Shown: positions 7,702-28,288 of the stretch, piece after piece
Position numbering within the stretch: the stretch's first letter is position 1
Layout of the letters: every line of letters starts with the position of its first letter
DNA from: Cohaesibacter marisflavi
GTDB lineage: Bacteria; Pseudomonadota; Alphaproteobacteria; Rhizobiales; Cohaesibacteraceae
Reading direction: 5' to 3'
DNA: 64,000 nt
Assembly: GCF_900115225.1 (NCBI RefSeq)
Contig: NZ_FOVR01000002.1
Location: 558,001 to 622,000, forward strand
Translations under genes and position numbers: made by a program
Notes under the pieces: model-generated
What the model was told of the DNA's origin: nothing
What the model saw: only the letters and a program-made list of their open reading frames with translations
Database searches by the model: none

Positions 7702-8649
7702 TTATTGGTCGAACACGGAGAAAAAGGTGTGCCGAATTGCATCGGCATCGCAGCCGAGGGCGACGTGGGACGGCAATCGGGTCTTGGATTGACTGCGGCA
7801 TGTTTGCCCGCTGGCTTCCCCTTCCATAACGGCTTCAAGCGCCATGGACTCCATGGTAAAAAGTCCCGGATAAAGAGCCGCGATGATCGCCATCGGATCA
7901 TGCAGGCCGCAACCGGATAGGCCAATGCTTTTATAAAAGTCCAGATAGAAGGCCCCGAGCTCTTTGAGAAACGGGCCGACCGGGTGCTTTCTGGTGGCAA
8001 TATGGCTGAAGTCCTGCTCATCAAGTAGCACTTTGAGCGTCACATCAAGACCCACCATGGTGACATTTGCCCCTGAGGCCAAAACGACGTCCAGCGCATG
8101 AGGATCATGGAAGGCATTGGCCTCCGCATAGGGTGAAACATTGCCGCGCACATCCAGCGCTCCACCCATGAAAACGATCTTGTCCACATTTCGTGCAAAG
8201 TTTGTATCCATTTGGAGAGCACGGGCGATATTGGTGATCGGGCCGATCGGGCAAATGACCAACTTCCCCCGGTGGCGCTCTGCCATCTCGCATAGAAACT
8301 GAGCTGCGGCCAGCGGGCTGGCTGTGCCTGTGGGGGCGGGAGCAGGCAAATGGCCCAGTCCTTCAAGGCCATGAACCCGTGTTTTGGGAGCAAAGGGAGG
8401 AAGCGTCAACGGCTTTTCAGCCCCGGATGCAACGGGAATGGAAAGTCCCATTTTTTCCGCAAGATAGAGAGCGTTACGAGTCGCCTGCGCTGTGGTCACA
8501 TTGCCAAAAATCGTGGTCAGACCGAGCAACTCAATGTCTGGATGCAGGGCGGCATAGGCAATGGCCAGGGCATCATCAATGCCCGGGTCCGTATCAATAA
8601 TCAGCTTCACAGAAGTTAAATCCCAAATAGAAATCGTCTTTGGGCACAT
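7702..8649 (-). CDS. Nucleoside hydrolase (inosine-uridine preferring type)
   Basis: A 315-residue cytosolic enzyme predicted to split ribonucleosides into base and ribose. The N-terminal Ca2+-binding motif IIDTDPGIDDALA gives the Asp cluster, and the C-terminal HDPMAI supplies the conserved His/Asp; PIGPITNIARAL and EANAFHDPHA are also family features. ATG 8649 has a strong GGAGG four bases upstream; a GTG at 8610 directly before KLIIDTDPG is an alternative. It is divergent from the ABC-importer cluster, with a 176-base shared region containing repeats, so it may be co-regulated with that cluster and contribute the nucleobase step. Confidence 0.92.
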   Translation of the reverse strand: MCPKTISIWDLTSVKLIIDTDPGIDDALAIAYAALHPDIELLGLTTIFGNVTTAQATRNALYLAEKMGLSIPVASGAEKPLTLPPFAPKTRVHGLEGLGHLPAPAPTGTASPLAAAQFLCEMAERHRGKLVICPIGPITNIARALQMDTNFARNVDKIVFMGGALDVRGNVSPYAEANAFHDPHALDVVLASGANVTMVGLDVTLKVLLDEQDFSHIATRKHPVGPFLKELGAFYLDFYKSIGLSGCGLHDPMAIIAALYPGLFTMESMALEAVMEGEASGQTCRSQSKTRLPSHVALGCDADAIRHTFFSVFDQ

Positions 8650-8709
8650 CCTGCCTCCGGCCCCGTCAAAAAATGACAAGACGGACACAGCGAGGCCAAG
8701 AGCGCTACT

Positions 8710-8754
8710 TTGCACAGGATTTGGTCAAAATCAACGCTTGCACAATTCCGTGCA
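8710..8754. promoter_or_regulatory. Possible operator region: TTGCACA direct repeats
   Basis: TTGCACA occurs at 8710-8716 and 8738-8744, starts 28 bases apart and so nearly on one helix face. The second copy forms an imperfect palindrome, TGCAC-aattcc-GTGCA (8739-8754). It sits between the divergent nucleoside hydrolase and binding-protein genes. The cluster's own XRE-cupin regulator is the natural candidate to bind here, which is inference. Confidence 0.3.
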
Positions 8755-8825
8755 TTTTGTATTTACTCGATATTTCCAACAGGAAAATTCTTTTCCAGCT
8801 CGAAAAAACAGGAACATTCCCCGCT

Positions 8826-9860
8826 ATGCTGTCTTTTTCTTCTTCCATCCGCGCAACGACTGTTGCGATCGCTCTGACCCTTCCTGCTTTCGCGCATGCG
8901 CAAGATACACTGGTGGTCTCCAACTGGGGCTATTCTAACAATTTCTACCAGCCCTTCGTGTTTGAGCCATTTGAAAAAGCCCACAATGTCAAGATTGTCA
9001 CGGAAAGCGGCGGCGCTCCGGAACGCCTGAACAAGGCTCGCATTCGCGGCGGTGTCGACGTTATCCTGCTGACCGATAAATTTTCCCAGATCGGCATCAA
9101 TCAGGGCGCTTTCGAGACCATCGATTCTTCCAAGCTGACCCATCTTGATGAGCTGTATGAAGTGGCCAAGCATCCGCAGGGTGAATATGGTCCTGCCTAC
9201 ACCTTCGGTCGCTATGGCATTGTCTATGACAAGACCCGCACCGACACGCCGATCACATCCTGGTGCGATCTGTGGCGTGATGATTTCAAAGACTCCGTCG
9301 CCATGCCTGCCTTCAACACGACCGGTGGTCCGCTCACCGTGATGATGGCTGCGAAATGCGCAGGCACAGATGCCTTCAAGGATCCTGAAGCTGCTTTTGC
9401 CAAAATGGCCGAGTTGAAGCCGAATATCGTCAAGACCTTCTCTTCAGGCTCCGAGCTGACCAACCTGCTGTCCACCGGCGAAGCCTTTATCGGCCTTGCT
9501 CAGGATTATGCCTTCCCTGCCATCAAGGCAGCCAACCCGAATATCGGTTGGGCGGAGCTTGACGAAGGCGACTTCGCCATGATGAACACCTACAACATTC
9601 CGAAAAATTCCAAGAACAAGGAATTGGCGCTGAAATTCATCGATTTCTCGATCTCTGCACAGGTGCAGAAAGACGGAGCTGTCGAACTCGGTGCAGGCTC
9701 TGGCCCGATCAACAAAACGGTCGAGTTGACCGACGAACAGGCTAGCGGCCTGGTTTACGGACAGGACCAGGTTGAGAAAATGCAGACCACTCCCATCAAG
9801 CAACTGCTTGAAGTGAATGATGCATGGGAAAAACTCTGGAACAAGACATTCGGGTTCTGA
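8826..9860 (+). CDS. ABC transporter periplasmic binding protein, spermidine/putrescine (PotD) type
   Basis: First gene of the importer cluster. The 344-residue product has a signal peptide, MLSFSSSIRATTVAIALTLP, cut after AFAHA, and a mature domain of the PotD-like group (TLVVSNWGYSNNFYQPFVFEPFEK, then YGPAYTFGRYGIVYDKTR). It should deliver a small cationic or polar solute to the two permeases that follow. ATG 8826 has AGGAA upstream and places the signal peptide at the N-terminus; longer frames starting at 8640 have no family support. The permease start lies within a few bases of its stop. With carbamoylase and amidohydrolase genes downstream, the true ligand may not be a polyamine. Confidence 0.9.
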   Translation: MLSFSSSIRATTVAIALTLPAFAHAQDTLVVSNWGYSNNFYQPFVFEPFEKAHNVKIVTESGGAPERLNKARIRGGVDVILLTDKFSQIGINQGAFETIDSSKLTHLDELYEVAKHPQGEYGPAYTFGRYGIVYDKTRTDTPITSWCDLWRDDFKDSVAMPAFNTTGGPLTVMMAAKCAGTDAFKDPEAAFAKMAELKPNIVKTFSSGSELTNLLSTGEAFIGLAQDYAFPAIKAANPNIGWAELDEGDFAMMNTYNIPKNSKNKELALKFIDFSISAQVQKDGAVELGAGSGPINKTVELTDEQASGLVYGQDQVEKMQTTPIKQLLEVNDAWEKLWNKTFGF

Positions 9861-9861
9861 T

Positions 9862-10731
9862 TTGTCTACACAACCTTCTTTATCGATAACAAAGCGCATG
9901 GCCGCTTTGGGCCCATGGTTGCTGGTTCTGCCAGCAACCATGTTGCTTTTTCTGCTCCTTGTGTTGCCCGTTGCCGGCACGCTCAAGGAGAGCTTTGACG
10001 GTGCGTCAGGCGGCTTGTTGGACAACTATCAGGCATTCTTTGCCGATGAGTTCAATCGCGTTGTTCTGATCCGCAGCTTCAAGATTGCTTTCATGTCCAC
10101 GTTCGTGTCACTCGTGGCGGGCTTTCTGGGCGCTTATATGATCGCCAATGCCTCACCCAACCTCAAGCGCGTGTTGCTGATCCTGTCGGTCTTCCCGCTG
10201 CTGACCAGTGTTGTTGTGCGGTCTTTCTCCTTCATGGCAATCCTTGGGCGTAACGGGGTGGTCAACACGCTCTTCCTCAAGATCGGACTGATCGACCAGC
10301 CGCTGGAACTGCTGTTCACGCAAGGCGCGGTGGTGGCCGGTCTTGCCTATCTCTTCACGCCCCTGATGATCCTGTCGCTGGTTGGTGTGTTGGAGAATAT
10401 CGACGACGATCTTTATGCCGCTGCGGGCTCGCTTGGCGCCAGCCCGGTTGGTGTTTTCTTCCAAGTGACGCTGCCGCTTGCGGTGCCGGGCATGATCGTT
10501 GGTTCGATCCTTGTCTTTACCGGCAGTCTGGCGACCTTCGTTACGCCCGTTCTGCTTGGGGGCGAACAACAGATGACCCTGTCTACCCTGCTTTATCGCA
10601 AGGCCATGATTTCATTTGACTGGGCTGCGGCCAATACCATCGCTGCGATCATGATGGCCATCACCATCACATGCGTGATCGCCATGGGGGCACTTGCGAA
10701 CCGGATCGCCGCGGGGAGGAAAATGCGATGA
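9862..10731 (+). CDS. ABC transporter permease 1 (PotB-like)
   Basis: An integral membrane protein with six predicted helices and the binding-protein-dependent transport signature near residues 175-195 (DDDLYAAAGSLGASPVGVFF: the EAA loop, which docks on the ATPase). The start is uncertain: TTG 9862, one base after the preceding stop, gives 289 residues; ATG 9898 gives 277; both lack a strong ribosome binding site, which suggests translational coupling to the upstream gene. The stop overlaps the next permease start (ATGA), confirming an operon. Confidence 0.88.
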   Translation: MSTQPSLSITKRMAALGPWLLVLPATMLLFLLLVLPVAGTLKESFDGASGGLLDNYQAFFADEFNRVVLIRSFKIAFMSTFVSLVAGFLGAYMIANASPNLKRVLLILSVFPLLTSVVVRSFSFMAILGRNGVVNTLFLKIGLIDQPLELLFTQGAVVAGLAYLFTPLMILSLVGVLENIDDDLYAAAGSLGASPVGVFFQVTLPLAVPGMIVGSILVFTGSLATFVTPVLLGGEQQMTLSTLLYRKAMISFDWAAANTIAAIMMAITITCVIAMGALANRIAAGRKMR

Positions 10732-11519
10732 GCGCCAGAAAGATCAATCCTCTCTCCAAAATTGCAGGCTGGCTGGTGGTCTTCTATCTGGCCGGACCGA
10801 TCATTATCGTGATCGGCACCTCTGTCAGTGATACGCCTTTTCTGGCCTTTCCGCCTCAGGGCTTTACGCTGAAATGGTATCACAAGGTTTTCGAGCTCAA
10901 CAATTTCGTTGAAAGTTTCATCACGTCCATGGAAGTGGCGTTCGGCGGAACAATGATTGCGCTGATCGCAGGCCTCGCCGCTGCCTATGCCCTGTCGCGC
11001 TATAAGGTGCGGCTGCCCGCTTGGTATGGCTCTATCTTCTTCCTGCCCTTCTTCATCCCCGAGATCGTGTTCGGCTTTTCCATGCTCAAGACGCTGATCG
11101 TGCAGTTCGATTTACCGATCCTGCCTTCACTGATGCTGGGCCACGCGATCCTGTGTTTGCCCTATATCGTACGGGTCATCGGGGCGAGCCTTGCCGGGTT
11201 CGATTTCTCCATTCAGGAAGCGGCCGTCAGCCTTGGCATGCATCCGGTCAAGGCCTTCTGGTCCATCGTGCTGCCCAACATCCGCTCCGGCGTCATCGCG
11301 GGTGCCGTCTTGGCCTTCATTACTTCGCTGAACGACATGGCGGTGGCCCTGTTTCTTACGGGACCGGGGGTTTCCACCTTGCCGATTGAAGTCTTCACCT
11401 ATGTTCAGCAGTTTTTCGATCCGACCGTCAGCGCCGTGTCCGTGCTGCTCATGGCCGTGACCATTGGTGTCATGGCTCTCATCGAGCGCAGTCTGGGCCT
11501 GTCCAAGACGATTAAATAA
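10728..11519 (+). CDS. ABC transporter permease 2 (PotC-like)
   Basis: A 263-residue permease with six predicted helices and an EAA loop (DFSIQEAAVSLGMHPVKAFW). It starts at ATG 10728, overlapping the first permease's stop by four bases, with GGAGG 10 bases upstream. It should pair with permease 1 to form the membrane channel, with the ATPase encoded 11 bases downstream. Confidence 0.92.
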   Translation: MSARKINPLSKIAGWLVVFYLAGPIIIVIGTSVSDTPFLAFPPQGFTLKWYHKVFELNNFVESFITSMEVAFGGTMIALIAGLAAAYALSRYKVRLPAWYGSIFFLPFFIPEIVFGFSMLKTLIVQFDLPILPSLMLGHAILCLPYIVRVIGASLAGFDFSIQEAAVSLGMHPVKAFWSIVLPNIRSGVIAGAVLAFITSLNDMAVALFLTGPGVSTLPIEVFTYVQQFFDPTVSAVSVLLMAVTIGVMALIERSLGLSKTIK

Positions 11520-11530
11520 CAGGAGCTGAA

Positions 11531-12598
11531 ATGGCACAGAACGCCGTTATCCTACAAGATCTTGTTGCTCACTATGGCCCGACGCAGGTGCTGCACGGGC
11601 TTAATCTGACCATTGCCGAGGGCGAGCTGGTTTCCTTGCTTGGCTCTTCTGGTTGCGGCAAGACCACAACCCTGCGCCTGCTGGCGGGCTTCCTTCAGCC
11701 AACCAGCGGCCAGATCACCGTTGCGGGCAAGGATGTCACCAAGCTGCCGCCGCATAAGCGCGACGCGGGCATCGTGTTCCAGAATTACGCCCTTTTCCCC
11801 CATCTCACTGTGGCTGAGAATGTCGGCTTCGGGCTCAAACAGCGAAAGGTGGCCGCGCCGGAACGCAAGGCCCGTGTGGATGCCATGCTGGAGCGTGTGG
11901 GACTTGTTGACTATGCCAATCGCTTACCAGCGGCCCTTTCTGGCGGTCAGCGTCAGCGCGTGGCCTTGGCACGTGCTCTGGCCATCAATCCGCCGCTGTT
12001 GATGTTCGATGAACCGCTCTCGAACCTTGACGCAAAGCTGCGCGTGGATATGCGCGTGGAAATTCGCGAGCTGCAAAAGGCCAATGGCCGCACCGCAATC
12101 TATGTGACCCACGATCAGGAAGAGGCTTTCTCCATTTCCGATCGTGTTGCCATCATGAATGCAGGCCGCATCGTCCAGCTTGATACCCCCGAAGTGCTCT
12201 ATCGTCGCCCCAACAGTGCCTTTGTCGCCCGTTTCGTCGGCTTTGACAATCTCATTGAGATGAAAGTGGTCAAACGCGAAGGCGATCTGGTCACCGCAGA
12301 AGTCGAGGGCGGGGCATTGATCACCCTGTCGCAAGCCGAAACCGGCCCGCTTGAGGATCGCTTCGTGGTTGGTGCCCGCCCCGAGGGCATAGAGCTTACG
12401 GCCGATCCTTCCAACGCCATCGCGGGCAAGCTTTTGACCCGCTCCTATCTTGGCCGCTCCTACCAATATAAGGTCGACACGCCGACCGGCATGCTGATTG
12501 CTAACGCCCCGCTGACGCAATTGCATGAAGAGGGCGGCGCCATCAATCTGAAATTCAATTTCGAGCATTGCTGCATTCTGCCGGTAGAGGAAAACTGA
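11531..12598 (+). CDS. ABC transporter ATP-binding protein (PotA-like)
   Basis: The 355-residue ATPase of the importer. Visible are Walker A GSSGCGKTT (about residues 38-46), the Q-loop in FQNYALFPHLTV, the signature LSGGQRQR, Walker B LLMFDEPLSNLD and the switch His in THDQEEA. The last 110 residues form the TOBE-type regulatory domain usual for polyamine, iron and sugar importers. AGGAG seven bases before ATG 11531 is a strong ribosome binding site. The carbamoylase gene starts 1 base after its stop, tying import to catabolism. Confidence 0.95.
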   Translation: MAQNAVILQDLVAHYGPTQVLHGLNLTIAEGELVSLLGSSGCGKTTTLRLLAGFLQPTSGQITVAGKDVTKLPPHKRDAGIVFQNYALFPHLTVAENVGFGLKQRKVAAPERKARVDAMLERVGLVDYANRLPAALSGGQRQRVALARALAINPPLLMFDEPLSNLDAKLRVDMRVEIRELQKANGRTAIYVTHDQEEAFSISDRVAIMNAGRIVQLDTPEVLYRRPNSAFVARFVGFDNLIEMKVVKREGDLVTAEVEGGALITLSQAETGPLEDRFVVGARPEGIELTADPSNAIAGKLLTRSYLGRSYQYKVDTPTGMLIANAPLTQLHEEGGAINLKFNFEHCCILPVEEN

Positions 12599-12599
12599 T

Positions 12600-13547
12600 A
12601 TGTCCCGTTCCATTGTTGCCGCCGCCGCACAGCTGGGGCCAATCCAGCGCAGTGATGACCGCAAGTCTGTCGTCAAGCGCCTCATTGCCTTGCTGGAAGA
12701 AGCTGCGAGCCGGGGCGCTGAGCTGGTTGTCTTCCCCGAACTGGCGCTGACCACTTTCTTTCCCCGCTGGCACCTGACTGACAGGGAAGAAATCGATGCC
12801 TTCTATGAAAAGCAGATGCCGGGGCCGGAAACCCAGCCCCTGTTCGATGCCGCCAAGCGGCTTGGTATTGGCTTCTATCTCGGCTATGCCGAAATCGCCG
12901 TCGAAGACGGAGAGACCAACCATTACAACACTGCCATATTGGTGGATCGGGCTGGCACACTTGTCGGCAAATATCGCAAGGTTCATTTGCCCGGATGGGA
13001 CGAGCCGCAAGCCGATCTGGAAGCTCAGCATCTGGAGAAATATTTCTTCAAGCCGGGCAATTATGGTTTCAAGGTCTGGAAGACCATGGGCACCCGTATC
13101 GGCATGTGCATTTGCAATGACCGGCGCTGGGCTGAAACCTACCGTGTAATGGCCTTGAAGGGCGCGGAAATGATTCTTGTGGGCTATAACACTCCCATTG
13201 ATCACACCGGCGTCTATGATTTTGACAGCTTGACGGAATTCCACAATCAGCTCTCCATTCAGGCCGGTGCCTACCAGAATTCCACCTGGGTTGTGGCAAC
13301 CGCCAAGGCTGGTTTGGAAGAAGGCTCCAACATGATCGGGCAGTCGATGATCGTTGCGCCTTCCGGTCAGATTGCTGCCATGGCTCTGGGCACGGGCGAC
13401 GAGGTGATCACTGCGCGGTGCGACCTTGATATGGCTGCGCTCTACCGCCGGACCATCTTCGACTTTGCCCGCCATCGCGAGCCAAAGCATTATGGTATCA
13501 TCACCCAGACCAAGGGACCGATCATCAGCGATGATGACGAGGCCTGA
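12600..13547 (+). CDS. N-carbamoyl-D-amino-acid hydrolase (nitrilase superfamily)
   Basis: A 315-residue cytosolic amidase predicted to hydrolyse N-carbamoyl-D-amino acids, or a close analogue, to amino acid, CO2 and ammonia. The nitrilase triad is Glu47 (VVFPELALTTF), Lys127 (GKYRKVHLPGWDEP) and Cys172 (GMCICNDRRWAETYRV), at positions that agree with those known for Agrobacterium D-carbamoylases; CNDRRW and GYNTP are hallmarks of that branch. It begins 1 base after the ATPase stop, so it is translationally coupled to the importer. In hydantoin pathways this enzyme follows a ring-opening hydantoinase; here the adjacent amidohydrolase is of a different family. Confidence 0.92.
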   Translation: MSRSIVAAAAQLGPIQRSDDRKSVVKRLIALLEEAASRGAELVVFPELALTTFFPRWHLTDREEIDAFYEKQMPGPETQPLFDAAKRLGIGFYLGYAEIAVEDGETNHYNTAILVDRAGTLVGKYRKVHLPGWDEPQADLEAQHLEKYFFKPGNYGFKVWKTMGTRIGMCICNDRRWAETYRVMALKGAEMILVGYNTPIDHTGVYDFDSLTEFHNQLSIQAGAYQNSTWVVATAKAGLEEGSNMIGQSMIVAPSGQIAAMALGTGDEVITARCDLDMAALYRRTIFDFARHREPKHYGIITQTKGPIISDDDEA

Positions 13548-13562
13548 TCAAGGATGGCTCTC

Positions 13563-14231
13563 ATGAGCCGACACAAAGGGGATAGAACCGTGTCCGTGGA
13601 CCAAGACATGTCATTTGTGAAACCGGAGGAGAGACAATCTTCCGTGTCCCAGATCATCTCGGACTTGCGTAAGAAGAATGGTTGGACCCTGGCTGAAATG
13701 TCCAAGCGGACTGGTGTTTCCATCTCCTCTTTGTCGAAAATCGAAAATGGTCAGAGCCAACCGGCCTATAGCGTTCTGACCCGTCTGGCCTCCGGCCTTG
13801 ATGTCGATTTTGCCGAGCTGGTGGGAGCAGAAGCCCCCAAGCAGCGCTGTGTTGGCGCGGCACGCACCATCAGTCGGGCAGGGGAGGGCAAGAAGCTCTC
13901 CAATGACATGGGGCTCTATGAATTGCTCTCGACCGAGCTGGCGGCCAAGCTGCTCCAGCCCATGGTCATCGAGGTCAATCCGCGCGTCAGCGGACATCCG
14001 GCTCCGCAAAGCGCCCATTCGGGCGAAGAGTTCGTCTATGTGCTCGAAGGGGATGTCATTTTCGAGATGGACCCTTATGCACCGACGCTGATGTCGACCG
14101 GCGACTCGGTCTATTTCGATGCAGCCCAGACCCATAGCTTCTATGCTGTGGGCCCCAAGACAGGGCGTATCCTGTCCATTTGCTCGGCCGATACCGTTGA
14201 CCTGCTGACAAAAAATCTGGATAAAAAATGA
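13563..14231 (+). CDS. XRE family transcriptional regulator with C-terminal cupin domain
   Basis: The 222-residue product has an N-terminal helix-turn-helix (SQIISDLRKKNGWTLAEMSK, then TGVSISSLSKIENGQSQPAYSVL, about residues 28-75) and a C-terminal cupin (HSGEEFVYVLEGDVIFEMD to GDSVYFDAAQTHSFYAVG, about residues 145-200) that likely binds the inducer. Such regulators control amino acid, polyamine and aldehyde catabolism. ATG 13563 has AAGG nine bases upstream; ATG 13554 is directly adjacent to that sequence and so less likely. Its stop overlaps the next gene's start (ATGA), so the regulator is made with its targets, allowing autoregulation. Confidence 0.9.
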   Translation: MSRHKGDRTVSVDQDMSFVKPEERQSSVSQIISDLRKKNGWTLAEMSKRTGVSISSLSKIENGQSQPAYSVLTRLASGLDVDFAELVGAEAPKQRCVGAARTISRAGEGKKLSNDMGLYELLSTELAAKLLQPMVIEVNPRVSGHPAPQSAHSGEEFVYVLEGDVIFEMDPYAPTLMSTGDSVYFDAAQTHSFYAVGPKTGRILSICSADTVDLLTKNLDKK

Positions 14232-16069
14232 TCACAGCAAAATCCGAAGTTCAAATCCGCCAGCAACTGACCCTCGTTGCGCTGGGCAAAGCGCCTGCCG
14301 ATCTTGTGCTGCATGTGGGCAAGCTGCTCGACACTGCCACGCGCACATGGTCGAGCGCACAGGAAATCGTAATCAAGGGCGACCGGATCGCCTATGTCGG
14401 TCCTATTGGCTCGTGGACAGGGGCTTGCGAAACCATCGTCAAACGCCCTGACCTGATGGCCATTCCGGGGCTTGGCGAAGTGCATAAGCATATTGAAAGC
14501 TCGCATTTGACGCCGGAGTGGGAAGCCGCCCTCGTGTTGCCTCGTGGCAATACATGGACCTGCGAAGCCAGCCACGAATTCTCCAACGTGCGCGGGTCGC
14601 GCACCGTGGAATTCTGGCTTGAAGCCCGCAAGCAGGGTTCACCCCTCAAGATTTTCCCTCTTCCCGGCTCTGCTGTGCCCCCCACCGCCTATGAACATGG
14701 CGGCGGATATCTGGGCTATGACGAGCAGAAAGACTTCATCGGCAATTCCATGATGGTGGCGGGCTTGGACGAAGTCATGGACTGGCCAGCCGTCTGGAAC
14801 CCGGAAAACGCCTCTCACAAGCGGCTCTGGGGTATGATCGAAGCAACCTTTGAAGCCCGTGGCGTGGTCGAAGGTCATGCAGCAGGCCTCAAGGACCTGC
14901 CCACCATCAATGCCTTTGCCGCAGCAGGCCTTGCTTCGGACCATGAAGCATGGACCGCTGAGGAATTCTGGGACAAGCTGACCCACGGTCTGTTCATCGA
15001 ATTGCGCCCCCATTCCATGCCGGAGGTCTTGCAGGGCCTCATCGAAAAGGGGCTTGGAGACTGGTCCCAGATTGCCTTTACCACCGATGACCGTTCGGCC
15101 TCGGAAACACTGGAAAAAGGCGCAACCGATTACAATGTTCGTCTCGCTATCCAATCTGGCCTGAAGCCGGAAATCGCCATTCAGTGCGTGACCATCAACC
15201 CGGCGCGCCACATGCGGCTCACCCCATGGGTGGGCTCTCTTACGCCGGGGCGTTTTGCCGATATCGTGCTGCTCTCCGATCTGGAAAGCTTCGAGATCGC
15301 TGAAGTCTGGGCCGATGGACGGCAGGTCTCTGAAGGCAAGCGCTTCACTGACCCTGTGCCCGAAATCAACTGGCCGGACTGGGCGCGCAACACGGTGCAA
15401 GTCGGCGGCACACTCAGCGCTGCGGATTTTGCCATTCCCGCGAAGGCCGGACGGGAAACGATGTCAGCGGCGGTGCTGCGCCCGTTCCATTGGGAGGAGG
15501 ACTTCCTCACCTATGAGCTGCCGGTGAAAGACGGTTTGGTTCAGCGGGATGTCAGCCGCAACATCACCAAATTTGCCATTGTTGACCGGTTCTCCGGCAC
15601 AAAATCCCTCTCGAAAATGTTCTGGGCAGGCACTGGGCCGAGCACGCCCGATTGCGCGCTTGCCAGCTCTCTGGCGCATGACAAGCATAATGTCTGGTGC
15701 GTTGGCTCGTCCGATGAAGCGATGGCCATGGCCGTCAATGCCTTGTCAGAAATCGGTGGCGGCTGGGCTCTAGTGCGGGACAACAAGGTCGTTGCCACCG
15801 TGCGCTATGAGGTGGCCGGGCTGATGTCCTCCCGCTCCGCAGAAGCGCTGGATGCGGACATGCAAAAGCTCTATGCGGAGGGCGCAAAGATCGACTGGAT
15901 GTTCGAGCCCTCTTCTTCGCCGCGCTGGTGGGCTGGTTTCCCCGAGCGGTTAGCCTTTGCCACCCTTACCTGTGCTCCATGGCGCTGGGTGCTGGTTGCT
16001 CCCGCTGAGGGCATCCCGGAGGGGCTCGTCAATGTTGCGACCGGTGAAACCCATCCGGTGGTCTGGTAA
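14228..16069 (+). CDS. Adenine deaminase-like metal-dependent amidohydrolase
   Basis: A 613-residue amidohydrolase with the two-part layout of adenine deaminase (Ade). The metal-binding HxH is present as VHKHIESS near residue 87, where classic enzymes have DAHLHIESS. EGHAAG supplies the next His, and TTDDRSA the catalytic Asp pair. NPARHMRLTPWVGSLTPGRFADIVLLSD and the C-terminal domain (HDKHNVWCVGSSDEAMAMAVN) also fit. Departures from the E. coli-type sequence (GLGEVHKH for GFIDAHLH, SHEFSNV for PHEIVNV, EGHAAG for DGHCPG) suggest the substrate may differ from adenine. It overlaps the regulator by four bases and precedes the M20 hydrolase, so ring deamination or opening of the imported compound is likely. 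Confidence 0.87.
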   Translation: MITAKSEVQIRQQLTLVALGKAPADLVLHVGKLLDTATRTWSSAQEIVIKGDRIAYVGPIGSWTGACETIVKRPDLMAIPGLGEVHKHIESSHLTPEWEAALVLPRGNTWTCEASHEFSNVRGSRTVEFWLEARKQGSPLKIFPLPGSAVPPTAYEHGGGYLGYDEQKDFIGNSMMVAGLDEVMDWPAVWNPENASHKRLWGMIEATFEARGVVEGHAAGLKDLPTINAFAAAGLASDHEAWTAEEFWDKLTHGLFIELRPHSMPEVLQGLIEKGLGDWSQIAFTTDDRSASETLEKGATDYNVRLAIQSGLKPEIAIQCVTINPARHMRLTPWVGSLTPGRFADIVLLSDLESFEIAEVWADGRQVSEGKRFTDPVPEINWPDWARNTVQVGGTLSAADFAIPAKAGRETMSAAVLRPFHWEEDFLTYELPVKDGLVQRDVSRNITKFAIVDRFSGTKSLSKMFWAGTGPSTPDCALASSLAHDKHNVWCVGSSDEAMAMAVNALSEIGGGWALVRDNKVVATVRYEVAGLMSSRSAEALDADMQKLYAEGAKIDWMFEPSSSPRWWAGFPERLAFATLTCAPWRWVLVAPAEGIPEGLVNVATGETHPVVW

Positions 16070-16105
16070 TCGGGTGCGCAGCGAACGAGCAAGAAGCAAG
16101 AGACT

Positions 16106-17338
16106 ATGACAAGTAACCTTCATATCAATTCCGACCGCCTGTGGCAGAGCCTTGAAGACATGGCCAAAATCGGCCCCGGTGTGGCAGGCGGCAACAATCG
16201 CCAGGCCGTGACGGACGCAGATGGCGAGGCCCGAACCCTGTTTGCCGATTGGTGCAAACAGGCTGGCCTGACCATGGCTGTCGATACAGTCGGCAACATG
16301 TTCATGATGCGACCGGGAACCGACCCTGACGCCTTGCCCGTTTATCTTGGCTCTCATCTGGATACCGTTCCTGCAGGGGGCCGTTATGACGGTGTACTCG
16401 GGGTGTTGGCCGGGCTTGAACTGGTGCGCACGCTCAATGAGGCTGACATCAATACCAGACACCCAATCGTGGTGGTCAACTGGTCCAACGAAGAAGGCGC
16501 TCGGTTTCATCCAGCCATGCTTGGCTCGGGCACCTTCATCGGCAAGCAGGATCAAGCCTTTGCCTATGGGCGCGAAGATATGGATGGCAAACGCTTTGGC
16601 GATGAATTGAAGCGCATCGGCTGGGCGGGGGATGAAGCCCCCGGAAACCGCAAGATGAAATCCTATTTCGAGCTGCATATCGAGCAGGGGCCGGTGCTGG
16701 AAGCTGCGGGCAAGGAAATCGGCGTCATCACCCATTGTCAGGGCATGAAGCGCCCGCAATATACTCTCACTGGCAAAGCGGTGCATACCGGCTCGACCCC
16801 GATGCATATGCGCATCAATGCGGGCCTCGCTGCAGCCCGTATCACCGAAGTGGTGCAGGAAGTCGCAATGGCCGAGCAGCCGAACGCCGTGGCCGGGATC
16901 GGCAAGATGGTCTATGAGCCTTGTTCACCCAACGTGCTGCCGTCGACTGTGCTCTTCACCATCGATATTCGCACTGTGGATGCTGCCAAGCTGCAACGCA
17001 TGTATGACACCATCTGGCAAAGAACGGAAAAAATCTGCGCTGACCTGGGTGTTGGCTGTGCGGTGGAAGAGGTCGGCTCTTTTGATCCGGTCACCTTTGC
17101 ACCAGAGCTGGTGGATATCGTGCGGACCTCCGCCGAGGGGTTAGGGCATGAGCATATGGATATGGTGTCCGGCTCAGGCCATGATGCCTGCTGGATTGCC
17201 GAAGTGGCTCCCGCAGCGATGATCATGTGTCCCTGTGTCGATGGCCTGTCACACAATGAGGCCGAATCCATTTCGCCTGAATGGGCCGCTGCCGGTGCCG
17301 ATGTGCTGCTTCACTCGGTGTTGAAGGTCGCAGGCTAA
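16106..17338 (+). CDS. M20 family Zn-dependent amidohydrolase (allantoate / N-carbamoyl-L-amino acid type)
   Basis: The 410-residue product belongs to the M20 branch holding allantoate amidohydrolase, beta-ureidopropionase and N-carbamoyl-L-amino-acid hydrolase. Metal ligands are visible in GSHLDTVPAGGRYDGVLG, NWSNEEGARFHPAMLGSG and ELHIEQGPVLE; a dimerisation domain with KAVHTGSTPMHMR follows, and the C-terminal ligand lies in GLSHNEAE. It closes the importer cluster, 36 bases after the deaminase-like gene. Having both a D-type carbamoylase and this L-type/ureide hydrolase in one transcript points to a substrate with one or more carbamoyl groups. The exact substrate is not determinable here. 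Confidence 0.9.
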   Translation: MTSNLHINSDRLWQSLEDMAKIGPGVAGGNNRQAVTDADGEARTLFADWCKQAGLTMAVDTVGNMFMMRPGTDPDALPVYLGSHLDTVPAGGRYDGVLGVLAGLELVRTLNEADINTRHPIVVVNWSNEEGARFHPAMLGSGTFIGKQDQAFAYGREDMDGKRFGDELKRIGWAGDEAPGNRKMKSYFELHIEQGPVLEAAGKEIGVITHCQGMKRPQYTLTGKAVHTGSTPMHMRINAGLAAARITEVVQEVAMAEQPNAVAGIGKMVYEPCSPNVLPSTVLFTIDIRTVDAAKLQRMYDTIWQRTEKICADLGVGCAVEEVGSFDPVTFAPELVDIVRTSAEGLGHEHMDMVSGSGHDACWIAEVAPAAMIMCPCVDGLSHNEAESISPEWAAAGADVLLHSVLKVAG

Positions 17339-17694: not shown

Positions 17695-18750
17695 ATGACC
17701 ACAAAAAGCCTAAGGTCAATGCTTGCCTGCGCTGTTTTCCTGGCAGTGCCGACAGCTGCATTGTCCAACGATCTGTTGGAAGAAGCAAAAGACTATTTCG
17801 AACCGATCCCGTCTGTTGTTCCTTCAGTGAAGAACAACGCCGTAACGGGTGACAAGATTGAATTGGGCAAAATGCTCTTTTTCGATCCGCGTCTCTCCTC
17901 ATCGGCCCTGATTTCTTGCAATACTTGTCACAATCTGGGCATGGGGGGCGACGATAATTTGGAAACATCGATCGGTCACGGTTGGCAGAAGGGACCACGC
18001 AATGCACCCACCGTGCTGAATGCCGTGTTCAACATCGCCCAATTCTGGGATGGCCGTGCCGAAGATCTCAAGGCTCAGGCCAAGGGGCCGGTGCAAGCCG
18101 GTGTTGAAATGGCCTCCTCGCCAGCTCGTGTCGAAGCAACGCTTAAAAGCATGCCTGCTTATGAAGTCGCGTTTGCCAAGGCATTCCCGGGAGAAGACAG
18201 CCCGATCAGTTTCGACAATATGGCCAAGGCCATCGAAGCCTTCGAAGCAACCCTGATTACGCCCTATTCACGCTTTGACCAGTTTCTGGAAGGAAACACA
18301 AAGGTGATGAATGAGGAGGAGCAGGCCGGTCTGCAGCTCTTCATCGATACGGGCTGCGCTTCCTGCCATGCAGGGGTCAATCTCGGAGGCGAAGGCTACT
18401 ATCCGTTTGGAGTTGTCGAAAAACCGGGGGCAGACGTTCTGCCCGCAGGTGACAAGGGCCGCTTTGCTGTGACACAGACAGCCGATGAAGAATATGTTTT
18501 TCGCGCTGGACCGTTGCGTAATATCGAGTTGACCGCACCTTATTTCCATTCCGGCAAGGTTTGGGATCTTGAACAGGCTGTCGCCATTATGGGGACAAGC
18601 CAGTTGGGTGAGGATTTGTCTGATGACGAGATCAAGAAGATCACGGCCTTCTTGAAAACGCTAACCGGAGAACAGCCAAGAGTAGATTATCCAATTCTTC
18701 CGGTTGAAACATCTGAAACACCAAAGCCAGAGTTGATGGTTGTAAAATAA
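17695..18750 (+). CDS. Dihaem cytochrome c peroxidase (CcpA/MauG family)
   Basis: A periplasmic 351-residue protein with a signal peptide ending near ALS-N at residue 25. Two haem-binding CxxCH motifs are present: CNTCH (about residue 75) in the peroxidase half and CASCH (about residue 220) in the electron-transfer half. The segments GPRNAPTVLNAVFNIAQFWDGRA and FRAGPLRNIELTAPYFHSG are typical. It should reduce H2O2 with electrons from a small cytochrome or cupredoxin. ATG 17695 follows a strong GGGAGG. A terminator lies just after the stop, so the gene is probably monocistronic. Confidence 0.94.
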   Translation: MTTKSLRSMLACAVFLAVPTAALSNDLLEEAKDYFEPIPSVVPSVKNNAVTGDKIELGKMLFFDPRLSSSALISCNTCHNLGMGGDDNLETSIGHGWQKGPRNAPTVLNAVFNIAQFWDGRAEDLKAQAKGPVQAGVEMASSPARVEATLKSMPAYEVAFAKAFPGEDSPISFDNMAKAIEAFEATLITPYSRFDQFLEGNTKVMNEEEQAGLQLFIDTGCASCHAGVNLGGEGYYPFGVVEKPGADVLPAGDKGRFAVTQTADEEYVFRAGPLRNIELTAPYFHSGKVWDLEQAVAIMGTSQLGEDLSDDEIKKITAFLKTLTGEQPRVDYPILPVETSETPKPELMVVK

Positions 18751-25141: not shown

Positions 25142-28100
25142 CTATTCCTCAAGAGCCCGCACCAGATAGGGCAGGCAGACATCCATGCGATAATCGATGG
25201 AGGAATGGTTGTCGGGGAATTCCTCATAAACGTGGTCAACGCCAGCGGCTTCCAGCTTGCTGTGCAAGCGGCGGGCGCCGTAAAGCAGATTATACTGGTC
25301 AACATAGCCACATTCTAGCCAAAGGCCCTTCATGGACTTGAGATTGGCAATCACCTCGGGCTGATCGGCCAGAACCACAGGGTCCCATTCCAGCCAGTTT
25401 GCCCAGCGCTCTTGGATGAGCGAGCAATCATGCATATTGACCGGCAGCCGGATGCCGAAATAGGAGTCCGGATCAGGATCGTAGCTAGCAGCCATGGCGA
25501 GTGTCATCAAAGCATGGATGTCCTTACCGTCATATTTCGGACCTTCTTCAAATTCGGTCAGGAACCGCTCGATGGAATTGTTCTTCTTGGCCAGCGCGCG
25601 CAGCAGGTTCGGCATATCGGGCAGATAGCAAAGCTCGAAGGCCATATCGCCGGAGAGGCAGGCCGCAGCCGACCAGAAATCGGCATGTTTCATGGCATGA
25701 AGGATAGAGCCATAGCCGCCGGATGATTTGCCAAACAGTCCGCGCTTGCCCGGTCCACCACAGCCGATCTGTGTTTCGATGGCCGGTGTCATGTCTTCGA
25801 TCAGGAAATCTTCCCAATTGCCCAAAGCTGCGGAATTGACATACTGATTGCCGCCAAGCCGGGTGAAGCAATCGGGGAATGCCACCACGGCAGGGGGCAT
25901 CTCTCCTGAAGCGATGAGCCGATCCAGCCGTTCGGGCACATTCTCGCCGAAATTCTTCCAGTTCACATGCGCAGGTCCACCAGCAGTGAAGCCGACGAGA
26001 TCGACCAGCAAGGGCAATCCCGCTCCATCATGGCCATGGGGCGTGTAGATGATAACCTCGCGTTCGCAGCTATCTCCCAGCAGATTGTTTTCCAGTGCTT
26101 TGGAAGAAACAGTGATGGTTTGCAGGGTGCCTTTTGGCGTTGAGGGATCGCGGCGCATGGAAAAAGGTCTCCGTTTGAAATGGCTGCCAAGTTTTGGAAA
26201 AATTGCCATATTGGATGGCTTTATACCAGAGCTAACCTTGGCATGGGGCAAACGGCTGCGTGTTGAAGATAGGCCGTGGTCGGTTTTCTCCCAATGATGC
26301 GGATCATGTATCAGTTGATAGAGCGCGCGCCAGGCCGCCGGTGTCATCAAAAGCCAATAGAGGGGCATTTCCAATATGGCCCGCCAGCCAAAGCCATAGC
26401 GTTTGCCCGCCCATTTGCGCCCCAGCACCATGACGCCGCCATACCCCAGTACCAGATTGATGCTGTTAATGGCCAGCAAGACAAAAAACAGCGAGCCGTT
26501 CTGGCTGCCATAGAGGGCCAGATTCCAAGCGGATATGCCAAATGTCAAAAAATAGAGCGGATGCACAAGCGTCGACAAAAGCATGCTGCCGATCATGATA
26601 TGGAACGAGAAAAATCGGTCGCTGCCCAATTTTCTATAAAGATAGCGAGGCCGGCGCATATGCACGATCCATGTCTGCATCCAGCCCTTGAACCAGCGTG
26701 TCCTTTGCTTGAGCCAGACAGCGTAGCTTTCCGGCGCTTCCTCCCATGTGTCGCTTCTGATGGTCTCGATGTCATAGCCTAAGCGGGAAAGGCGCAAGCC
26801 AAGATCGGCATCTTCCGTCACATTATAGGGGTCCCAGCCGCCGATCTGCTTCAACACGCGGGTTTTGAAATGGTTTGACGTGCCCCCCAGCGGCACCACC
26901 AGCCGGTCAAAGGCCAGAAAGGGCAGAAGACCATCAAAGAGCGCTGAATATTCCACGGCAAACTGACGCGTCAAAAAGTTGGTGCGCGCATTGTCAACGG
27001 CCAATTGGGCTTGCAGACAGGCAAGGGAAGGGCGCCCGCTTAACATATGCAGCGCAGCGATTTTCAACTGGTGCGGGTCCGGCCTGTCTTCTGCGTCATA
27101 AATGACAGTGAGATCGGATTGCACAAAGGAGAGTGCATAATTGAGCGCCTTGGGCTTGGTTTGTGGTCCGCCTTTGGGAATATCAACCAGTTCGATAAAT
27201 GCAGGTAACGTGATCTTGGCAAGTGCTGCTCTGGTTTCCTCGTCCTCTTCTTCCAGCAGGAGATAACAGGTGAGACGGTCGCGCGGATAATCCAACCGGC
27301 AGAGCGACTGGATCAAATCCGGAACCACGCGTCCCTCCCGAAAGAGTGGCACAAAAACCGAGTAGCTTGGCCAGTCTGAAGACGCTTCGGTTTTCTTGGT
27401 TGTATTAAGCAGAGAGAGAACGCGGCTTGCCTGCGTTGTGCGGGTGTGGGGCAAGCGGAAAACGGATATGAGCCGCAAGATACTCATTGTCAGGAAGATC
27501 ATGATGGTAATCAGATTGATCCCGATGCCAATGGACGAGAAGACAAGGCTGCTGCCGATCAGGGCGATAAGAGTAATTGCGAGATAATAGGAATGGAATG
27601 GCTTGAACTTGCCGTGTGCGGACAGATCCGGCATTGTCTGCTTGAGTCGGAACACATGATGGTCCATCGCCGCTTTTGAGGCGGAGGCTCGCTGCAGGCG
27701 CCGCAATTGTCGCGGAGTGGTTATCCGCACGCGTTGCCTGAATTGCGGGTCCAGTGCCATTTTCTCAGCCAGAGCGTCAAGCTCTTTGCCATGGGGTGCG
27801 CACAGATAGAGGCTGTCGGCCACAGGAGGCGCGTGATCCAGCTTGGCAAATGGCCTGATCAAGATCCACGATAGATCACGCAGTTTCTCTAGCGGCCAGT
27901 TATCAGGCAGGGGGTAGAGGCCAGAAGTGGATGGCTGCGCGACAAAGGGAACCCCCAGTCTCTTTGCCGCGCATGCAAAATAAAGTGTTTCATCCAGTTT
28001 GCCCTCCCGTGTCCAGCGCTCGATCAGAGGATCGCCCGTTTGCGCGGCACTCTTGAGGGCCTGTTGCAGGGAGGGACTTTTGAAAGCCTGTAAGGAATCC

Positions 28101-28288
28101 AGAATAGAAAGATGAAACGGCAAACGGGATGAAAACTCGGCTTCAGAAGATAGACCGGGTTGAACGGATTTTGCGGACTGTGGTGTTTCCCGCCATTCTC
28201 TGCCATGCTCATCATAGGCGACGGCGGCTTGGTCTAAAGCCGCTGCTTCAAGAGCTGCCGGATCTGGGGCTTTGTTCAGAAAGTTCAT
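25142..28288 (-). CDS. Membrane glycosyltransferase family 2 fused to a C-terminal esterase D-like domain
   Basis: An unbroken 1048-residue frame with two enzymes. Residues 1-215 resemble the regulatory N-terminus of large alphaproteobacterial GT2 proteins; two membrane helices follow. The catalytic GT2 domain has IYDAEDRPD near residue 396, the TED motif (NVTEDADLGLRL, about 491) and QRTRWFKGW (about 530), as in processive cellulose/hyaluronan-type synthases; more helices run to about 680. From about residue 711 (an internal Met) comes an alpha/beta hydrolase of the putative esterase family: nucleophile loop FGKSSGGYGS near 855 and a catalytic His candidate in FPDNHSS near 1027. The esterase should lie in the cytosol unless the helix count is odd. 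A GGAG 12 bases before Met711 might also allow separate translation. The substrate is presumably an exopolysaccharide or lipid-linked sugar. Confidence 0.88.
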   Translation of the reverse strand: MNFLNKAPDPAALEAAALDQAAVAYDEHGREWRETPQSAKSVQPGLSSEAEFSSRLPFHLSILDSLQAFKSPSLQQALKSAAQTGDPLIERWTREGKLDETLYFACAAKRLGVPFVAQPSTSGLYPLPDNWPLEKLRDLSWILIRPFAKLDHAPPVADSLYLCAPHGKELDALAEKMALDPQFRQRVRITTPRQLRRLQRASASKAAMDHHVFRLKQTMPDLSAHGKFKPFHSYYLAITLIALIGSSLVFSSIGIGINLITIMIFLTMSILRLISVFRLPHTRTTQASRVLSLLNTTKKTEASSDWPSYSVFVPLFREGRVVPDLIQSLCRLDYPRDRLTCYLLLEEEDEETRAALAKITLPAFIELVDIPKGGPQTKPKALNYALSFVQSDLTVIYDAEDRPDPHQLKIAALHMLSGRPSLACLQAQLAVDNARTNFLTRQFAVEYSALFDGLLPFLAFDRLVVPLGGTSNHFKTRVLKQIGGWDPYNVTEDADLGLRLSRLGYDIETIRSDTWEEAPESYAVWLKQRTRWFKGWMQTWIVHMRRPRYLYRKLGSDRFFSFHIMIGSMLLSTLVHPLYFLTFGISAWNLALYGSQNGSLFFVLLAINSINLVLGYGGVMVLGRKWAGKRYGFGWRAILEMPLYWLLMTPAAWRALYQLIHDPHHWEKTDHGLSSTRSRLPHAKVSSGIKPSNMAIFPKLGSHFKRRPFSMRRDPSTPKGTLQTITVSSKALENNLLGDSCEREVIIYTPHGHDGAGLPLLVDLVGFTAGGPAHVNWKNFGENVPERLDRLIASGEMPPAVVAFPDCFTRLGGNQYVNSAALGNWEDFLIEDMTPAIETQIGCGGPGKRGLFGKSSGGYGSILHAMKHADFWSAAACLSGDMAFELCYLPDMPNLLRALAKKNNSIERFLTEFEEGPKYDGKDIHALMTLAMAASYDPDPDSYFGIRLPVNMHDCSLIQERWANWLEWDPVVLADQPEVIANLKSMKGLWLECGYVDQYNLLYGARRLHSKLEAAGVDHVYEEFPDNHSSIDYRMDVCLPYLVRALEE

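Follow-up and report, generated by a model that had tools for sequence, protein, structure and literature searches.

The locus raised the question of which compound is broken down by an operon in which an adenine-deaminase-like amidohydrolase, here called ADE, stands among carbamoylases. The operon was found in a window, the whole stretch of 64,000 nucleotides analysed, from Cohaesibacter marisflavi (contig NZ_FOVR01000002.1, positions 558,001 to 622,000). Its eight plus-strand genes, at window positions 8826-17338, were found to code for a four-gene importer, an N-carbamoyl-D-amino-acid hydrolase (DCase), an XRE-cupin regulator, ADE and an M20 N-carbamoyl-L-amino-acid hydrolase, and a nucleoside hydrolase gene was present divergently on the minus strand. 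An earlier note made from the sequence had counted nine same-strand genes, a number that is reached only with the minus-strand nucleoside hydrolase, although all the genes it named were found in their places.

The operon was tentatively read, with rather less than even confidence, as degrading a purine nucleoside or base whose N6 is linked through a urea group to an amino acid. N6-threonylcarbamoyladenosine (t6A), the natural tRNA nucleoside of this N6-ureido-amino-acid type, and its hydantoin form ct6A would fit best. A substrate of this type was proposed because it connects the purine genes with both the carbamoylases and a beta-hydroxy-amino-acid enzyme of related operons, and it would cover both the modified purine and the hydantoin that the earlier note had named as alternatives.

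Residues and relatives of the amidohydrolase

The closest solved relative of ADE was found to be the adenine deaminase 3nqb (Atu4426), in keeping with the earlier description of the protein, and the score of 294.3 bits against the TIGR01178 equivalog lay below the cut-off of 472.5, so that the model does not name it an adenine deaminase. Judged by its sequence, ADE is not an ordinary adenine deaminase, an alternative that the earlier note had left standing, and forms a clade of its own with 61-91% identity to the window copy in a nine-member alignment and 91-99% within the genus, whereas the ordinary adenine deaminases were about 29-36% identical. The clade was present in 31 of the 397 sampled genomes of the order (E up to 1e-130).

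The residues were compared between 100 members of the ADE clade and 28 ordinary enzymes from the retrieved loci. The metal ligands H86, H88, E182, H217, H239 and D287/D288 were found in the clade and in 90% or more of the ordinary enzymes alike, and the same was found for the base-binding R260 and for H484-D485-H487. An excerpt of PMC12133300 gives the arginine that reads the adenine ring as Arg252 in YerA and Arg260 in Atu4426. The residues K87, W110, W186, W466 and W490 were present in 100/100 clade members and in 0/28 ordinary enzymes, and D185 in 100/100 and 2/28, respectively. E113, S115 and a C-terminal block at about 567-591 were likewise constant among clade members and missing or almost missing from the ordinary enzymes. 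K87 was located between two metal histidines and D185-W186 near the bridging glutamate. Because the metal and base residues are kept while many others are replaced, the comparison argues for, without proving, a deaminase-type attack at C6 of a purine, the side of the leaving group being altered. R289 had been considered as a clade-specific pocket residue and was dropped, being missing from the list of such residues.

The AlphaFold model of ADE had a mean predicted local distance difference test score (pLDDT) of 84.6 (28 rows), was poor at 150-157, 561-569 and 581-584, and superposed on 3nqb with TM-scores of 0.83/0.87. The fold, both domains, the metal ligands, the base-binding arginine and the histidine motif were thus common to ADE and Ade/Ade2, and would suit a diverged deaminase acting on free adenine, in an operon for purine salvage to which carbamoylase genes were added; one locus of Palleronia (L038), where a nucleoside hydrolase and a related importer accompany an Ade of ordinary type, also fits this account. 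It was nevertheless held to be very improbable, since the identity of about 30-36%, the score below the adenine-deaminase cut-off, the residues present in 100/100 clade members and missing from the 28 ordinary enzymes, and the position in an operon with carbamoylases set ADE apart. The same genome was also found to contain two further Ade paralogs outside the window (contig C19, 51245-52834 and 57722-59332, about 5 kb apart), 30% and 35% identical to ADE, so that ordinary adenine deamination is probably handled elsewhere, and two other loci (L100, L128) hold both types close together.

Gene company, partner hydrolases and conserved order

The neighbours of ADE were counted within 9 kb at 80 loci of a contig scan, the best 80 of 378 ADE relatives (70-86% identical), close relatives among which make them non-independent, and within the same range at 20 control loci of ordinary adenine deaminases. 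An importer binding protein was found near ADE in 59/80 loci and 0/20 controls (p 5e-10), followed by a nucleoside hydrolase in 15/80 and 0/20 (p 0.037). The other genes near ADE were a TRZ/ATZ-type amidohydrolase (14 loci), a D-serine-dehydratase relative (13), DCase (12), the regulator (12), M20 proteins of aminoacylase type (M20a, 10) and dipeptidase type (M20d, 10), a phosphoribosyltransferase (9), an M24 protein (5), a nucleoside deoxyribosyltransferase-like gene (4), NCS2, BMP, TatD and creatininase (3 each), an ordinary-type Ade (2) and an M20 of the window type (1). The controls contained BMP in two loci, a hydantoinase-like gene in two and none of the other counted kinds.

Any carbamoyl or acyl hydrolase (DCase, window-type M20, M20a, M20d or M24) was present in 36/80 ADE loci and 0/20 controls. 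Any nucleobase gene (nucleoside hydrolase, phosphoribosyltransferase, NCS2, BMP, deoxyribosyltransferase-like, ordinary-type Ade or TRZ/ATZ type) was present in 27/80 and 2/20, in agreement with the nucleobase theme proposed earlier, and both groups occurred together in 16/80 ADE loci. Among 22 loci with DCase beside ADE, the window and its genus counted and some being near-copies, 11 contained a nucleoside hydrolase (window, L119-L122 and L063) or a BMP-type importer (L033, L034, L047, L066 and L126).

In a tree of 100 distinct ADE rows with three outgroup rows, in which gains and losses were not separated, the label for DCase with the D-serine-dehydratase relative changed 8 times (with well-supported branches forcing at least 6), that for M20a 4 times, M20d 4 times (at least 3 forced), M24 once and DCase with M20, the window form, once; 52/100 rows had none of these partner hydrolases nearby. 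The partners in different ADE branches span three fold families, namely nitrilase, several M20 types and M24. That amino-acid-releasing hydrolases of three fold families adjoin ADE suggests that its product includes an amino acid with an acyl or carbamoyl group.

The order of the genes was found to be kept in the genus and beyond it, as the earlier note had asked to be checked. ADE at 91% identity or above was present in 5 of the 18 genomes of the genus, the window's genome counted. All eight genes occurred in the same order in three of the four others, the fourth (G001) lacking only the M20 gene, and the divergent nucleoside hydrolase with the order importer-DCase-regulator-ADE was kept in all five. 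A divergent upstream nucleoside hydrolase (39% identity) was also present in Aquamicrobium (L063), and importer, DCase, regulator and ADE were found in identical order in other genera, the gene rows being drawn from codon-usage gene scoring and tblastn. Since the order recurs in same-genus genomes and other genera, it is more than chance.

The residues E47, K127 and C172, the triad named earlier, and R175 were found to be invariant in 17/17 clustered carbamoylases of such operons, the window counted, and this Glu-Lys-Cys triad of nitrilase fold, together with the match to 8i99, places the protein among the DCases, with D-activity predicted. A DCase fragment (67%) was present at a contig end in another genome (G195).

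The M20 protein, earlier called a carbamoyl/ureide hydrolase, was found to be an L-carbamoylase relative (8apz, 623 bits; TIGR01879, 385.5 bits against a cut-off of 204). Its score against the ErtE model (NF058540) was 355.8 bits against a cut-off of 520; ErtE, an N-carbamyl-L-glutamate hydrolase of ergothioneine breakdown, resembles it in being an M20 hydrolase that takes an N-carbamoyl amino acid in the last part of a pathway. The operon M20 was 68% identical to a copy on contig C28 of the same genome, and one loop read MKRPQY in 4/4 operon copies and LWWLEF in the C28 copy. This loop may bear on substrate choice, because it is one of two displayed places at which 8apz differs from 8aq0, both of them solved chains. 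Allantoin and allantoate were considered as substrates and rejected: the protein scored 610.3 bits against NF006769, an 'allantoate amidohydrolase' subfamily model (cut-off 452), but its closest solved kin were N-carbamoyl amino acid hydrolases, the operon contained no allantoinase, and AllC and PRK09290.1-1 were far below cut-off.

The place of the M20 gene was found to be taken by a gene annotated as alanine racemase in Neorhizobium petrolearium, Martelella, Agrobacterium vitis and Rhizobium ruizarguesonis. The one copy searched contained PF01168 followed by PF14031, and among solved structures it was closest to D-threo-3-hydroxyaspartate dehydratase and D-serine dehydratase, besides an unnamed 'aldolase or racemase' and a D-threonine aldolase; alanine racemases matched much less well. 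By these matches it is assigned to the D-serine dehydratase family, so that the database name is questionable. An HxC metal motif was present in 17/17 of these relatives; its cysteine is that of the dehydratases, in agreement with the present alignment. In D-threonine aldolase, an excerpt of PMC4401734 places an aspartate there (His347, Asp349).

The plasmid collection contained 18 records matching this relative at E up to 1e-60, and in all nine records of at least 50% identity (four species) a DCase (at least 68%) and an ADE (at least 74%) were adjoining by coordinates. The window's genome contained only a distant homologue (26%). The D-serine dehydratase/D-threonine aldolase family as a whole uses D-beta-hydroxy amino acids, and threonine is a beta-hydroxy amino acid. 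A member of this family in the place of M20 thus points to a beta-hydroxy amino acid.

Several further genes were observed around ADE elsewhere. One locus (L128, 8745-13272) contained two ADE copies (71% and 65% identical to the window) around a creatininase-family gene, whose product could open a hydantoin-like ring, and beside them an adenine deaminase of ordinary type and an NCS2 permease; it is probably the same contig as L093. ADE was beside BMP-family (PnrA-like) importers at L127 (3302-18239), L133, L126 and L131, the first of which had in addition a TRZ/ATZ-type amidohydrolase, a nucleoside hydrolase and, judged from first residues, a creatininase-like gene. A xylose-isomerase-like gene followed ADE in 19 Rhizobium-type loci (L077-L113), with PF01261 in one searched copy, and a flavin oxidoreductase was near ADE in nine loci.

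Candidate substrates and the proposed pathway

The operon resembles a hydantoin operon of Aminobacter sp. SR38 (pSR7, L172), in which a PotABCD-like importer, DCase, an M20 carbamoylase and a dihydropyrimidinase stand in one row, the DCase being 64% and the M20 55% identical to the window's. By position ADE replaces the hydantoinase (HydA) of that row, as the earlier note had supposed, and it might therefore open a hydantoin or other cyclic ureide to N-carbamoyl amino acids for DCase and M20. This was taken as the main rival explanation and judged unlikely. A D and an L carbamoylase together would suit a racemising hydantoin, and creatininase-family genes were found near ADE at L128 and L131 (by Pfam) and at L093, L110 and L127 (by similarity). 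Nine genomes of the order sample contained a full-length DCase of at least 65% identity, with ADE adjoining in six; among the other three, without the ADE clade (L123, L124 and L125; DCase 65-66%), a hydantoinase-like gene was present in L123 and, judged from first residues, in L124, and not in L125.

Against ring opening stand the conserved metal and base-reading residues of adenine deaminase, the nucleoside hydrolases, phosphoribosyltransferases, BMP and NCS2 transporters near ADE, and the finding that a hydantoinase-like gene was present in 0/80 ADE loci within 9 kb. None of the eight operon genes was a hydantoinase or dihydropyrimidinase, and the three hydantoinase-like matches of the genome lay on other contigs, one of them adjoining an M20 carbamoylase (C28) and one about 10 kb from an adjoining DCase and M20 carbamoylase (C38). 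The window also differs from the Aminobacter row in the regulator gene within the row, in the divergent nucleoside hydrolase and in the binding protein, which was 24% identical to that of the hydantoin operon and reached 44-48% with the binding proteins of three other ADE loci (43-81% over ADE loci outside the genus, and 31% to that of L038). The earlier interpretation is thus partly supported, in the hydantoinase position, the conserved order and the nucleobase theme; ring opening, one of the two roles it had proposed for ADE, is disfavoured.

Polyamine uptake, an alternative of the earlier note, is not favoured. The importer scored below all the polyamine models listed, with PotA (TIGR01187) at 326.4 bits against 355.6, PotB at 139.3 against 348, PotC at 137 against 326 and PotD at 77.8 against 582.

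The preferred reading, an N6-ureido-adenine nucleoside as substrate, leads to the following steps. The ATP-binding cassette (ABC) importer would take up the nucleoside, and the nucleoside hydrolase would release its base from the ribose. ADE, with two metals and attack of water at C6, would then form hypoxanthine and an N-carbamoyl amino acid in place of ammonia, which for t6A would be N-carbamoyl-threonine. The L form would be hydrolysed by the M20 protein and the D form by DCase, in each case to the free amino acid, CO2 and ammonia, and in related operons the enzyme of the D-serine dehydratase/D-threonine aldolase family would consume the D-beta-hydroxy amino acid. DCases are D-specific and t6A holds L-threonine, so the D branch needs an epimer; hydantoins epimerise at the alpha carbon, and ct6A could in this way be the source of the D form (D-allo-threonine), an epimer that would suit a D carbamoylase with a D-amino-acid enzyme. 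A whole bacterial pathway that consumes t6A and ct6A, by import, ribose removal, C6-N6 cleavage and L and D carbamoylases, with the D-threonine-processing enzyme in related operons, is considered possible though rather uncertain.

Precedents for parts of this scheme were found in excerpts of published work. YerA/Bh0637, of the same Ade superfamily, likewise processes an N6-substituted adenine, deaminating N6-methyladenosine (PMC12133300), although its N6 group is a methyl. Cytidine deaminases free amides from N4-acylcytidines (PMC9897663), and NdmH, the N2,N2-dimethylguanine hydrolases (PMC13054789), are amidohydrolases that likewise strip a substituted amine from a modified base, of the guanine type and in another branch of the superfamily. 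Ring opening of ct6A to t6A is listed in PMC13244150, together with an 'epimerization' worded as one between the hydantoin and oxazolone forms.

YerA is also a precedent for a small modified adenine, such as N6-methyladenine or a cytokinin, as the substrate of ADE, with the carbamoylases forming a separate, co-regulated nitrogen route. Many ADE loci contain an NCS2 permease or no hydrolase, and many hosts are rhizobia or otherwise plant-associated. This explanation is regarded as doubtful; it would leave unaccounted for both the repeated occurrence of ADE together with DCase, M20 types and the D-serine dehydratase relative and the regulator/ADE overlap inside a carbamoylase operon.

Several findings weigh against an N6-ureido-amino-acid purine. 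As to the compound, t6A carries L-threonine and the natural supply of the D epimer is uncertain, and the excerpt of PMC12133300 has YerA accepting, and even preferring, plain adenosine. As to the counts, the reference proteins were drawn from loci with ADE and carbamoylases, so that the control leans to the test set; DCase (p 0.12), the D-serine-dehydratase relative (p 0.065), M20a, M20d, M24 and the phosphoribosyltransferase were singly non-significant against the 20 controls; and 44/80 loci were without any of the five carbamoyl or acyl hydrolase kinds within 9 kb. The partners M20a, M20d and M24 are no known carbamoylases. An NCS2 base permease without a partner hydrolase was found at L036, L037, L111, L115 and L130, where a simple base fits better. 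The window-type M20 gene directly behind ADE was confined, among the loci examined, to the genus of the window, where G001 lacked it; that of L043 lay about 7.6 kb from ADE on the opposite strand. The D-serine-dehydratase relative was also present at 41-48% on nine other plasmids of Ensifer/Sinorhizobium, and tblastn found no ADE or DCase in the three of these loci examined.

No description of bacterial t6A breakdown, and no paper joining an adenine deaminase with a carbamoyl-D-amino acid hydrolase, was found in the open-access literature, searched for the former by title and abstract start, a result that speaks only weakly for absence. D-threonine aldolases are described in an excerpt of PMC4401734 as having a largely unknown physiological role, and t6A-type nucleosides freed by RNA turnover are measured in urine and serum (ms2t6A, PMC9783452, in excerpt). 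If the pathway holds, bacteria would feed on t6A, a tRNA nucleoside that is nearly universal, and on its cyclised form ct6A, and the natural D-carbamoylases, which are not known to have an established physiological role, would gain one together with the relatives of D-serine dehydratase and D-threonine aldolase. Two known kinds, the modified-base aminohydrolase and the carbamoylase operon, would be extended, and the question is narrowed to one enzyme and a few compounds.

Layout of the locus and neighbouring genes

The coordinates of the operon and its divergent partner are collected in Table 1.

Table 1. Features of the operon and its upstream side in the window
Feature	Position	Strand	Evidence
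Nucleoside hydrolase (IunH family)	7702..8715	-	PF01156, 276.9 bits, above the gathering score of 34.2
Upstream region common to both divergent transcription units	8716..8825	.	Alignment of five same-genus genomes; ATG 8826 conserved
Importer periplasmic binding protein	8826..9860	+	SBP_bac_8; closest solved relative 4edp
Importer permease 1	9817..10731	+	PF00528
Importer permease 2	10728..11519	+	PF00528
Importer ATPase with TOBE domain	11531..12598	+	PF00005, PF08402
N-carbamoyl-D-amino-acid hydrolase (DCase)	12600..13547	+	8i99, 384 bits; triad E47/K127/C172
XRE-cupin regulator	13554..14231	+	HTH_3 + Cupin_2
ADE, adenine-deaminase-like amidohydrolase, 613 residues	14228..16069	+	Pfam, NCBIfam and PDB matches
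M20 N-carbamoyl-L-amino-acid hydrolase (HyuC type)	16106..17338	+	TIGR01879, 385.5 bits; 8apz

Most junctions of the operon were found to overlap or almost touch, in agreement with the small gaps and ATGA overlaps noted earlier: ATGA overlaps join the two permeases (10728-10731) and the regulator and ADE (14228-14231), and four other junctions are gaps of 11, 1, 6 and 36 bases. Two starts come into question for permease 1, namely ATG 9817, which would make it overlap the binding-protein gene, and the in-frame ATG 9898, the more likely of the two. The nucleoside hydrolase, which is proposed to split the imported nucleoside into base and ribose, scored below the four specific Rih/UriH cut-offs listed, RihA and RihC among them.

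Directly 3' of the operon, at window positions 17695-18750, a di-haem cytochrome c peroxidase/MauG-like gene was found, which also followed the operon in two of the four same-genus loci (L119 and L120) and had no match in L121 and L122. A long protein at 25142-28288 contained a glycosyltransferase-like part and an esterase-like part, as judged by eye.

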